In this document: piece by piece, positions 2,802-10,988 of the stretch
How positions within the stretch are numbered: the first letter of the stretch is position 1
How the letters are laid out: each line of letters begins with the position of its first letter
Assembly: GCA_938020525.1 (NCBI GenBank)
Contig: CALIHW010000103.1
Location: forward strand, 1-64,000
Direction: 5' to 3'
Length of the DNA stretch: 64,000 nucleotides
Source of the DNA: an uncultured Granulosicoccaceae bacterium
GTDB lineage: Bacteria; Pseudomonadota; Gammaproteobacteria; Granulosicoccales; Granulosicoccaceae
Notes under the pieces: generated by a model
Database searches by the model: none
Seen by the model: only the letters and a program-made list of their open reading frames with translations
Told to the model about the DNA's origin: nothing
Program-made: the position numbers and the translations under genes

Positions 2802-3170
2802 TCAGTTCTCCTTTGGGGTGGCAATATCTGCTTTTAGCTCGTGGGGTTCAAGCGGATCAAGAAACGGGTTGCGATAGAGTTTGTCGTGGCTTTCAATGCC
2901 GATGTCTATAGTGCAATCGGAAACCGGGTGTGCAACACATAGCACAATATAGCCATCATTGATTTGTCGGTTATTGAGTGCGACTTGTTTGCGCTGATCA
3001 ACCTCACCTTCAACTAGTTTTGCAGCGCAGGTAATGCATCCGCCGTACTTGCAACCATAAGGTAAGTCGACACCCTGTTTGCGCAGAGTTTCAAGCAACG
3101 GCCTGCGCGGGTTTACCTGATAGGTAGCAGCGCCACGATTGGCGATGGTAATAGTTTTTAGGTCACTCAT
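2802..3170 (-). CDS. [2Fe-2S] plant-type ferredoxin
   Basis: GCKYGGCITCAAKLVEGEV...VLC gives C-x4-C-x2-C...C; its stop directly abuts the downstream ATG. Confidence 0.88.
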   Translation of the reverse strand: MSDLKTITIANRGAATYQVNPRRPLLETLRKQGVDLPYGCKYGGCITCAAKLVEGEVDQRKQVALNNRQINDGYIVLCVAHPVSDCTIDIGIESHDKLYRNPFLDPLEPHELKADIATPKEN

Positions 3171-3185: not shown

Positions 3186-4544
3186 CTAAAGCCAGATGTC
3201 GCTGGTGCAATCGCCACCAGGATAGCGAGTCTCATGGCAGCGGCTAGGCCCGTTGGGTTCATTGCCAAAGTTGACTATAAAGTCCTGGTTGATTTGCATG
3301 CCCCCATTCTCTACATCGCAGTCGATCATCAACATGACGCCGCCTTTGGTGCGAATCTCTGGATAAAATTGGTTATCCCAGGTAGAAAAGAGAGAGGTGG
3401 TGACGTAGAGCCGCTTACCATCAAGGGATAGTTGATACATCTGTGGCCCGCCGGCTACATCAACACCGTTAACCTGTGGTGCTTTACCAAGCAGCCCGCC
3501 CATCCAGACCTGGCCAGTAAGCTTCGGGTTATGAGGATCAGTGATATCGTACTGACGCATGTCGCCATGTAGCCAGTTATTCAAATAAAGGTATTTGTCA
3601 TCCATAGATACCAGGATGGCGGACATTACTCCTGGTATGGGTATTGGCCATTCCGGATGGGGTTCGTTATCCACATCAATGATTTTTTCCCACTCCCATT
3701 TACTAGTCTCTGATTTCCAGAAGTGGATAACATTAGCGCTAAGGGCAGCGCCACAAAAGCCATGGGTGCTATCAGGGTTGTGGTGAAACTTTACTTCCAG
3801 CGGTATGAGTCCGTCCTCACCAAGGTACAGTGTTTCAAATGGCTCACGTTTTTCGAAATCCCAAAGATGCAGGCGTCTGCCGTATTTTAAGTGGCCAACC
3901 TCTTCAAGATCGAAGCCGGGCATAAAAGTATTGGGAGCAGCCCACTCGGAGCTGACCATTATGTTGTGGCGTGGTTGATACCAGAAATCATAGCTGAACG
4001 GGATGTCTCCCATTGAGTTCTCCCAGCGGCCGATAATTTCAAAGTCTTTATTCAGGTGCAGGTAGCCGCCCGGCGCTTCTCCTTTGGCATCACCGAGGAA
4101 GGAGATAATTATCTCCGAGCCCAGACAATGAACTGTATGTGGGCCGGAAAGATTGGCTTTGGTTTTTATCTCTGCGCCGTCAATAACCTTGTGTAAGGCG
4201 GGCGCGCGTGGGTTGGTCGCTGTATCTACAATATGAATATTGTTAGACCGAACGCCTGGAACCAATAAGTATTTACGCGACATAGAGGAATCATCATGGC
4301 ACGAAGAGCAGGCGTTCCAGCCCATGTGGTGCAATTCATCACCGATACCAGGCATCTCCAGGCGGTGAATGACTTCGGAGTAGGTCGGACTATCAGGGTC
4401 AGCATCTACTGTTGCGAGATAGTCCGGTTTCTGTATCCCGGTGCCGGTATAGATTGCGATGGTGTAGAGGAGTTTCTCTCTAGGTGCCGCCATTGCTTCT
4501 GACGGGTTGGCGTAGCCGGGGCCGCAGCAGGTTGTTGCCGTCAT
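3186..4544 (-). CDS. Selenium-binding protein 56 / methanethiol oxidase family (SELENBP1/MtoX-like)
   Basis: CCGPGYANPSEAM, PDYLATVDADPDSPTYSEVIHRLEMP, ELHHMGWNACSSC, LYLNNWLHGDMRQYDI, RYPGGDCTSDIWL are family hallmarks. Confidence 0.93.
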   Translation of the reverse strand: MTATTCCGPGYANPSEAMAAPREKLLYTIAIYTGTGIQKPDYLATVDADPDSPTYSEVIHRLEMPGIGDELHHMGWNACSSCHDDSSMSRKYLLVPGVRSNNIHIVDTATNPRAPALHKVIDGAEIKTKANLSGPHTVHCLGSEIIISFLGDAKGEAPGGYLHLNKDFEIIGRWENSMGDIPFSYDFWYQPRHNIMVSSEWAAPNTFMPGFDLEEVGHLKYGRRLHLWDFEKREPFETLYLGEDGLIPLEVKFHHNPDSTHGFCGAALSANVIHFWKSETSKWEWEKIIDVDNEPHPEWPIPIPGVMSAILVSMDDKYLYLNNWLHGDMRQYDITDPHNPKLTGQVWMGGLLGKAPQVNGVDVAGGPQMYQLSLDGKRLYVTTSLFSTWDNQFYPEIRTKGGVMLMIDCDVENGGMQINQDFIVNFGNEPNGPSRCHETRYPGGDCTSDIWL

Positions 4545-4571: not shown

Positions 4572-4624
4572 TTATCGTATAATGATAACACTATTATCAC
4601 AAATTGATAATAATGGTATTATCC
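4572..4624. promoter_or_regulatory. Putative operator array in the divergent mtoX-like / iclR-like promoter
   Basis: Alternating half-sites TTATCG(4572) TGATAA(4583) TTATCA(4594) TGATAA(4605) at exact 11-bp intervals, plus TTATCC(4619). Confidence 0.6.
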
Positions 4625-4700: not shown

Positions 4701-5483
4701 ATGCATCTTGAAAGACTTACTACAATTCTGGAGATTGTCGGAAAACACAGTGAAGCGACAGTTGCCGAAATTTGTGCCGCCTCGACCCTGCCAAAACCTA
4801 CGGTTTACCGGTTAGTTCAGGATTTGGTTTCTGCAGGCTTGCTTGAGCCTGTGTCCAAAGGCTGCTTTTCTATTGGTGTTCGATTAAAGCGAATTACGGA
4901 CAATGATCAATCTGATCGAGCATTGCTTGAGTTGATAGCTCCAGCTCTTAAAGATGCTGCGGAGGCTTATGGTGCGGCATTTTTTCTCTCAAGACTTTGC
5001 GGTACTTCTGTAGAAATAATTCATGTGGAAACACCAGGCAATGGTGTCTCATTTTTGCACCCGGGTTTGGGTAAGCGTCCCTTGCACGCCTGTTCCTGTT
5101 CCAAAGTGGTGGCGGCATTTTCACCTGAGTTAATGCTTGAAAAAAAGCTCAAGGGACGCTTAAAGGCCTACACTGAATTTACATTAACCAAAGTGACTGA
5201 TTTAAAAGCAGAGCTCGAAGCCATACGTAAGCGCGGCTATGCAGAGTGTGTGGAAGAGATTGAACGTGGTATGTGCTCTGTAGCATCACCGATTGGTCAA
5301 AGTGAACTGGGTAGAACGCTTGCTATTGGTGCAACCGGGTCAACCCGCGTGTTTACTCCCTCATTTCGGGTTCAACTAGGCAGTCAGCTTGTTGATATGG
5401 GTGAAGACTTGTCTGCGCGCTTTGGCTGGGCTGACTCTGCCAATTCTTATGGCTCTGCCACTGGCAGTACTACCAGGGACTAA
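4701..5483 (+). CDS. IclR family transcriptional regulator
   Basis: N-terminal wHTH (VAEICAASTLPKPTVYRLVQDLVSAGLLEP) and IclR effector domain (RGYAECVEEIERGMCSVASPI). Confidence 0.92.
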   Translation: MHLERLTTILEIVGKHSEATVAEICAASTLPKPTVYRLVQDLVSAGLLEPVSKGCFSIGVRLKRITDNDQSDRALLELIAPALKDAAEAYGAAFFLSRLCGTSVEIIHVETPGNGVSFLHPGLGKRPLHACSCSKVVAAFSPELMLEKKLKGRLKAYTEFTLTKVTDLKAELEAIRKRGYAECVEEIERGMCSVASPIGQSELGRTLAIGATGSTRVFTPSFRVQLGSQLVDMGEDLSARFGWADSANSYGSATGSTTRD

Positions 5484-5557: not shown

Positions 5558-6697
5558 ATGAATTCTGATAACTTTGGGTTTGGTACGCAGATACGTAAAT
5601 CTCCCTTCTTTGACGCCACTGTTCGTTGGGGCGCGAGGGATTTTTCTGTGTACAACCATATGTATATTCCGCGTGACTTCGGTGACCCTGAGCAAAACTT
5701 CTGGAATCTGGTTAACGATGCCATCCTTTGTGATGTTGCTGTAGAGCGGCAAGTCGAAATAACAGGCCCTGACGCGGCACAGTTTGTACAGTTCTTAACA
5801 CCGAGGAACCTTTCTGCCATGGCAGTGGGGCAGTGTAAGTACATTCTTATCACCAATGCAGATGGTGGCCTATTGAATGACCCGGTGTTGCTCAAGCTTG
5901 CGGAAGATCACTTCTGGATTTCACTGGCAGATAGTGACATCTTGCTTTGGGCTCAGGGAGTAGCTGTGCATTCTGGCTTTGATGTCAATATACGCGAGCC
6001 TGATGTATCTCCCCTACAATTGCAGGGTCCTAAGTCTGGCCAAGTGATGCAGGCTCTGTTTGGTGAAGGTATTAATGATTTGCGCTACTACTGGTTGCGT
6101 GAATATCAACTAGACGGTATCCCGTTGCTTGTATCACGTACCGGCTGGTCAAGTGAACTTGGCTATGAAATATATCTAAAAGACGGGTCTCGAGGCAATG
6201 AGCTGTGGGATAAGATTATGGCGGTGGGTGAACCGTTGGGATTGAAGCCAGGGCACACGTCTTCGATTCGTCGTATAGAGGGTGGCATGCTCTCTTATCA
6301 TGCCGATGCGGATATCAATACCAATCCCTTTGAGTTGAGGTTTGATCGATTGGTAGATCTTGACATGACTGCAGATTTTATTGGTAAATCTGCCTTGCAA
6401 CGTATTTATAAAGAAGGTGTTGCGCGCATGCAAGTGGGACTGGTAGTTGAAGGTGCTCCATTGAAAGGACCTAACACAACATTCTGGCCGGTTAAAATTC
6501 AGGGGCGTGATATCGGTAAGGTAACCTCGGCGGTCTATTCGCCACGGTTAAAACAGAACATTGCTCTTGCTATGGTCTCTTCCGATGTTGCTGCAACGGG
6601 TAATGAAGTTGATGTTGACGCGAGCTTCGGGAATACAAGAGCAAAGATTGTCGACTATCCGTTCTATGATCCAAAAAAGAAAGTTGCTTCATCCTGA
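5558..6697 (+). CDS. GcvT-fold folate-dependent aminomethyltransferase/demethylase, DmdA-like
   Basis: VYNHM, CDVAVERQVEITGPDAAQFVQFLTPRNLS, NDPVLLKL..WISLADSDI, QGPKSGQVMQALFG, IRRIEGGMLSY, resembling DMSP demethylase DmdA and relatives. Confidence 0.85.
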   Translation: MNSDNFGFGTQIRKSPFFDATVRWGARDFSVYNHMYIPRDFGDPEQNFWNLVNDAILCDVAVERQVEITGPDAAQFVQFLTPRNLSAMAVGQCKYILITNADGGLLNDPVLLKLAEDHFWISLADSDILLWAQGVAVHSGFDVNIREPDVSPLQLQGPKSGQVMQALFGEGINDLRYYWLREYQLDGIPLLVSRTGWSSELGYEIYLKDGSRGNELWDKIMAVGEPLGLKPGHTSSIRRIEGGMLSYHADADINTNPFELRFDRLVDLDMTADFIGKSALQRIYKEGVARMQVGLVVEGAPLKGPNTTFWPVKIQGRDIGKVTSAVYSPRLKQNIALAMVSSDVAATGNEVDVDASFGNTRAKIVDYPFYDPKKKVASS

Positions 6698-9335: not shown

Positions 9336-10454
<1,119 letters not shown>

Positions 10455-10641: not shown

Positions 10642-10757
10642 TGCCGCAGGCACCCGAAGGGCAAAGAAGTGCGCAAAGCGTTTTTGGTTACTTTGGCCGC
10701 TTTTGCAAAAGTGACTCGTAGAGCCAGGGACTGGCTTCGAAAAACGCCATGGATGGC

Positions 10758-10822
10758 AAGCCAGAGCAACAAGCCAGAGCAACAAGCCAGAGCAACAAGC
10801 CAGATCGACACTCCAGATCGAC
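10758..10822. repeat. 13-bp tandem repeat array (AAGCCAGAGCAAC and variants), about 5 units
   Basis: Three perfect copies 10758-10796, two diverged copies to 10822, degenerate tail to about 10890. Confidence 0.9.
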
Positions 10823-10988
10823 AAGCCACTCAAGTGAGAGCAAATAGCCAAAACGACAAGCCAGATCGACAAACCGCTCAAGCCAGAGCACAGAGACCCA
10901 ACCAGCCCAAGTCCGCAAAATCAAAACTTAAAGCAAGCAAGCCGCTTGTGGCATAATCCGCGGTTTGAAACGACCCACGGAGAGTCCG

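Follow-up and report, generated by a model that had tools for sequence, protein, structure and literature searches.

What are the evenly spaced TTATC and GATAA half-sites that lie between a divergent SBP56 gene and IclR gene in this bacterium, and which protein would use them? The stretch of DNA analyzed here (the window) covers 64,000 nucleotides, and the closest relatives among named records are uncultured Granulosicoccaceae. Within it, a gene for an SBP56 family protein (3186-4544, minus strand) and a gene for an IclR family regulator (iclR; 4701-5483, plus strand) are separated by a 156-bp intergenic gap. An initial annotation had listed five half-sites in this gap, and all five are where it placed them: TTATCG at 4572-4577, TGATAA at 4583-4588, TTATCA at 4594-4599, TGATAA at 4605-4610, and TTATCC at 4619-4624. 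The first four start exactly 11 bp apart and alternate in orientation; the fifth starts 14 bp past the start of the fourth.

The same annotation held that each neighboring pair of half-sites forms a palindrome. This is true of the letters in the window, but only one of the two kinds of pair, TTATCR-N5-YGATAA, keeps its spacing in orthologous promoters. When 95 related genomes were searched, 12 further loci came to light, whose IclR proteins are 43-83% identical to that of the window; SBP56 is divergent from iclR in 11 of them, and in the remaining one (L037) iclR is instead followed downstream by an SBP56 relative. A scan of a species-representative genome collection, for which HACSCSK was one of two retrieval patterns, added 80 loci, mostly from Rhodobacteraceae, with some from SAR116 and Acidimicrobiia. 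Once duplicates and loci with short upstream DNA were dropped, the comparison set consisted of 85 iclR promoters from gamma- and alphaproteobacteria and a few Acidimicrobiia.

An iterated motif placed two copies of KTMTCRYAWWNYGAKAA in every one of these 85 promoters, with a centre-to-centre distance of 22 bp in 78, 20 bp in six, and 21 bp in one. Since the length of this motif was fixed, four half-site boxes were placed again with all three spacings free. The result was 11/11/11 in 72 of the 85, 11/9/11 in six, and 11/10/11 in one, and in the last six promoters one outer box was poorly placed. The helical phasing seen by the initial annotation, which had named loss of the 11-bp interval in orthologous promoters as the finding that would count against it, is thus widely retained. 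It follows from the free spacings that the distance inside TTATCR-N5-YGATAA is constant and the distance between units is not; this is the conserved unit, and there are two per promoter. In the window, unit 1 is TTATCG-TATAA-TGATAA (4572-4588, plus strand), a 17-bp palindrome kept in all 85 promoters, and unit 2 is TTATCA-CAAAT-TGATAA (4594-4610, plus strand), centered 22 bp from unit 1. The inner letters of the left halves differ between the units, being TA in unit 1 and CAA in unit 2.

These counts should be read with descent in mind. The promoters are related, so that 85 of them are not 85 independent observations, and the flanking intergenic DNA of the nearest relatives retains some similarity. 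Likewise, the seven exceptions in spacing (L036-L042) all belong to one more divergent IclR branch (43-48% identity) and may stand for few evolutionary events.

The junction between the units, TGATAA-N5-TTATCA (4583-4599, assigned to neither strand), is the palindrome that the initial annotation had singled out. Among relatives its half-sites lie 11, 10, or 9 bp apart while the within-unit spacing stays at 11, and it is probably not a recognition unit; the idea that all neighboring pairs are equivalent palindromes finds no support, given the shift to 9 or 10 bp in the divergent relatives. The fifth half-site (TTATCC, 4619-4624, plus strand), which had been counted as part of the array, is out of phase with the other four. 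At its place L031 has nothing similar, L032 and L034 have degenerate versions (TTCTCC and TTCTCT) 2 bp further out, and in most alphaproteobacterial promoters it could not be accommodated, as unit 2 abuts the iclR start codon there. It is probably incidental and outside the operator, and may at most have a weak accessory role.

Does the operator belong to the regulator or to the enzyme? At the L037 locus, where SBP56 is not divergent, the motif still lies upstream of iclR. Ruegeria atlantica has a second iclR (L183, 45% identical, with SBP56 downstream), and upstream of it are one strong and one degenerate unit. Around SBP56 paralogues that lack this iclR (L184, L185), the operator is absent. 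The canonical mtoX locus (L186, from the sole genome in the genus sample that passes the MtoX cut-off) has no IclR relative and no operator within ~4 kb. An alignment over 369 genomes of the class found one further relative, which is ~30% identical and has neither SBP56 nearby nor the operator. Presence at iclR without a divergent SBP56, together with absence at SBP56 without this iclR, favors the adjacent IclR protein as the probable binder. The initial annotation had made the same suggestion, and the accompaniment of this iclR by the arrangement in 85 of 85 promoters speaks for it.

The place of the operator suggests what binding would do. In 77 of 83 promoters it lies 25-36 nt from the SBP56 start codon; its distance to the iclR start is variable, at 0-90 nt. 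On the minus strand, a putative -35-like TTGTGA (4597-4602, inside unit 2) and a putative -10-like TACGAT (4574-4579, inside unit 1) have the order and the 17-bp distance of a -35/-10 pair serving SBP56, and their letters are made up of the inner letters of the left halves of the units and their flanks. Among the 78 promoters with 22-bp spacing, TTGTGA or TTGCGA is found in 47, as is TACGAT or TACGAG. The match to -35/N17/-10 towards SBP56 averages 7.0 of 12 positions, compared with 4.5 at the mirror position on the other strand, where there is no -35 resemblance. The pair in the window was picked after alignment, matches the sigma-70 consensus at 8 of 12 positions, and is unlisted in a stricter standard promoter scan, which lists other overlapping candidates; we therefore infer, with support but short of demonstration, that the operator overlies the core promoter of SBP56. 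If so, this overlap would explain why the units are spaced at 22 bp next to SBP56 and at 20 bp in L038-L042, where the operator is 57-143 nt from SBP56, the alternative being descent. On the other side, many alphaproteobacterial promoters have 0-4 nt between the last base of unit 2 and the iclR start codon, and unit 2 there contains AAGG, which could be the ribosome-binding site of iclR.

From this arrangement we infer protein binding, repression, and an effector as follows. IclR, made from the divergent gene, would sit as two dimers or as one tetramer on the two 17-bp palindromes, two helical turns apart and on one face of the DNA; two conserved, phased units point to two dimers or one tetramer, and agree with the cooperative binding of more than one dimer proposed earlier. 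The bound operator would shut RNA polymerase out of the -35/-10 region of SBP56, so that repression would extend from SBP56 to the ferredoxin and CoA-binding genes that follow, and would limit iclR too. An effector held in the C-terminal domain would then release IclR from the operator. We regard this reading as a whole, a tandem operator at which IclR represses both SBP56 and its own gene until an effector releases it, as likely.

The IclR family includes activators as well as repressors, and PcaU and PobR activate their targets; IclR might likewise activate SBP56 from the same operator when the effector is present. In Ruegeria pomeroyi, methanethiol raises transcription of mtoX and of the IclR gene SPOA0268 (PMC5739008), which fits either sign. 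However, the operator lies over the probable -35 and -10 and not upstream of the -35, and its distance from the start of SBP56 is fixed. Its position suggests repression without proving it, and if the operator does cover the core promoter, repression would be the natural outcome. Activation is the strongest competitor, and an unlikely one.

How does the operator compare with known IclR sites? Suvorova and Gelfand (2021; PMC8222616) characterize the group 1 motifs of IclR regulators and report, for 94 orthologous groups, tandem sites at a distance of 18-22 nt, which they explain by a tetramer on one face of the DNA. The window operator resembles their group 1 subgroup WTT-11-AAW (WTTYCRYW3RYGRAAW): a 17-bp palindrome, in tandem about two helical turns apart, near a gene start. 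The letters in common are C at position 5, R at 6, Y at 7 and 12, G at 13, and an A+T-rich centre. More generally, the units fit the group 1 description of a 17-18 bp palindrome with the core CRY-W3-4-RYG, position 11 being only loosely R in unit 1, and their centres fall within the 18-22 nt range throughout (22 in the window and the majority, 20 or 21 elsewhere). The 22-bp spacing here stands at the top of the published range, which is mainly 19-21. The outer letters differ: positions 3 and 15 are A/C and T/G instead of T and A (TTATC or TTCTC versus TTTTC/TTTCC), with A or C at position 3 in 85 of 85 copies of unit 1 and 79 of 85 copies of unit 2. For this reason we file the operator as a group 1 variant and not within WTT-11-AAW. 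It is a tandem IclR operator of the known kind with variant letters at positions 3 and 15. SBP56 or selenium-binding genes have no mention in the main text of PMC8222616.

The same source reports 32 groups with three alternating boxes, as in PcaU, PobR, and HmgR, a type in which neighboring boxes make up group 1 and group 2 pairs, and this raises a second alternative. Three or more equivalent boxes might be bound in alternating dimer modes, with a dimer also on the central TGATAA-N5-TTATCA, which is a perfect palindrome in the window. We hold this to be quite improbable, as the central gap varies (11, 10, 9) while the spacing within units is constant. In addition, at 22-bp spacing, the central pair spans 17 nt, outside the 15-16 nt of the published group 2 consensus (TGRAACA-N1-2-TGTTYCA).

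GATAA and TTATC half-sites resemble pieces of the Fur box, and a regulator that recognizes GATAAT-like repeats, such as Fur, might own these sites instead of IclR. The geometry is wrong for this, as the 7-1-7 arrangement of the Fur box (TGATAATNATTATCA; TGATAAT-N-ATTATCA, 15 bp) is absent, with TGATAA and TTATCA spaced by 5 and not 3. A global regulator should also have many sites per genome, and the motif goes together with this iclR. In the 4.5-Mb genome there is a single copy of the 39-bp tandem with 0 mismatches. The next tandem places need 2-3 mismatches, a level at which the reversed-pattern control likewise gives 2 per strand, and the genome scan with the correct tandem found no second tandem target. 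Ownership by Fur or a similar regulator is accordingly very improbable.

Across 57 genomes, the 39-bp model has strong matches only at iclR-SBP56 promoters; it allows no gap, so that relatives with 20-bp spacing are below its reach. This uniqueness can be read from the sequence directly, as can the operator itself, its conservation and geometry, and its link to this iclR. The simplest reading is a local switch with one target region. Single units (TTATCRN5YGAKAA) are found at three places besides this promoter. These places and the tandem near-matches were considered as targets and set aside: the place on C118 is within a long open reading frame, and the rest are in or beside unrelated genes. 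We would also advise against the pattern TGATAA-N5-TTATCA, which the initial annotation had proposed for defining a regulon. It describes the junction between units, and at ≤2 mismatches it matches 387 times per strand genome-wide versus 193 for the reversed control, which amounts to many chance-level matches and no evidence of a regulon.

That the resemblance arose by chance has a negligible likelihood: the region is A+T-rich, but under a motif built without the window its promoter reaches 40.8, while none of 2000 dinucleotide-preserving shuffles exceeds 23.1, and the sites are conserved across classes. With the motif trained on 13 gammaproteobacterial promoters and the spacing left free between 12 and 40 bp, the 72 promoters kept out of training, from alphaproteobacteria and Acidimicrobiia, gave exactly 22 bp in 71 cases, and 71 of the 72 outscored every one of their 40 dinucleotide shuffles. 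The promoters of 16 paralogous iclR genes score 21.6 or less, most of them below 0. The separation of orthologues from paralogues is strong but not perfect, with a slight overlap between the weakest orthologue (L097, 20.2) and the paralogue L030 (21.6). Two of the higher-scoring paralogues, L026 and L030, carry single WTTTCAT-N3-TGAAAT sites, as would be predicted from the published WTT-11-AAW subgroup.

The regulator itself (4701-5483, plus strand) is an IclR family protein by its domains, HTH_IclR (PF09339) scoring 42.6 bits against a cut-off of 22 and IclR_C (PF01614) 67.8 bits against 24. TtgV is an IclR repressor reported as a tetramer on DNA. Its sequence is related to that of the window IclR, and its operator structure is PDB 2XRO; operator sequence and effector class are different, and any likeness of mechanism comes from the literature. 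The effector domain of the window protein contains a Cys-x-Cys (HACSC, with an invariant ACSC; Cys131 and Cys133) that is invariant in 13 of 13 aligned orthologues. It is invariant in the wider IclR set as well, save for one residue read as X, although only the set of 13 is unbiased here, as HACSCSK was used for retrieval. In related structures, the place of the Cys-x-Cys (window 4831-5100, and orthologues) holds other residues. It is a possible sensing site for a thiol, sulfane sulfur, or a metal. Given this pair and the enzyme controlled, our best guess at the effector is methanethiol or sulfane sulfur derived from it.

The SBP56 protein (PF05694, 680 bits), the product of the probable regulated gene, has the cysteine motifs GWNACS (Cys79), HTVHC (Cys140), and GGDCT (Cys446). 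Three cysteines are required for activity in RdMTO and RlMTO, two methanethiol oxidases of cluster 1 (PMC10936201). The window protein has all three of their motifs, at a spacing of 61/306 compared with 61/305 in RdMTO, and the L037-type SBP56 matches the RlMTO positions 76/140/456 exactly. All 80 full-length SBP56 neighbors carry the motifs GWNACS, HTV/IHC, and GGDCS/T. RdMTO and RlMTO were tested for activity, while the window protein is assigned to this kind from its sequence; it scores 147.9 bits against the MtoX equivalog NF052453 (NCBIfam), far below the cut-off of 650, and we name it methanethiol-oxidase-like for that reason. By its description, the SPOA0268/mtoX locus of R. pomeroyi is similar in that an IclR gene adjoins an SBP56-family methanethiol oxidase gene; it differs in that iclR and mtoX share one operon with SCO1 and mauG, and mtoX belongs to another SBP56 clade (PMC5739008).

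Downstream of SBP56, on the minus strand, are two conserved neighbors, a 2Fe-2S ferredoxin-like protein (2802-3170, PF00111) and a CoA-binding domain protein (2337-2801, PF13380). Downstream of iclR is a GcvT-family protein similar to the DMSP demethylase DmdA (5558-6697, plus strand), of a type near iclR in 22 loci. Its score of 363.9 bits against the DmdA model NF009133 is below the cut-off of 410, which makes it DmdA-like only; it may be a variant of DmdA or a different enzyme that transfers methyl groups. Other recurring neighbors are enoyl-CoA hydratase, acyl-CoA synthetase, rhodanese-like, and persulfide-dioxygenase-like proteins.

Methanethiol oxidation links DMSP demethylation to sulfur oxidation, and its control is little studied. 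For a widespread methanethiol-oxidase gene type in marine bacteria, the locus offers a precise operator and a probable regulator. It also offers a corrected search pattern: scanning for a regulon with TGATAA-N5-TTATCA would be misleading, and a switch of purely local reach is what the correct tandem suggests. A wider proposal, tentative and rather doubtful as it stands, is that marine gamma- and alphaproteobacteria and Acidimicrobiia share an uncharacterized group of IclR proteins that detects methanethiol or sulfane sulfur by way of its invariant Cys-x-Cys and switches on methanethiol oxidation from the tandem operator; the 22-bp spacing would be fixed by the second role of this operator as the -35/-10 of the oxidase gene.

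Some minor observations may be recorded here. In L058, L052, and similar Rhodobacteraceae loci, the rhodanese-like and persulfide-dioxygenase-like genes are near SBP56, as would fit methanethiol oxidation with sulfane sulfur as a product. In Maritalea myrionectae (L062, ~3480-3940), the SBP56 beside iclR looks like a remnant, with short pieces only; the locus retains iclR and the genes for the hydratase and ligase, along with a weaker form of the operator. At L037 (4868-9854), IclR, SBP56, and a protein near D-apionate lactonase (626 bits, cut-off 750) are encoded in one direction, the last being an unexpected neighbor for a methanethiol-oxidase-like gene. Finally, the window has 13- and 48-bp tandem repeats at 10757-10890, with the unit CAAGCCAGAGCAA, between a gene end at 10454 and a gene start at 10965.
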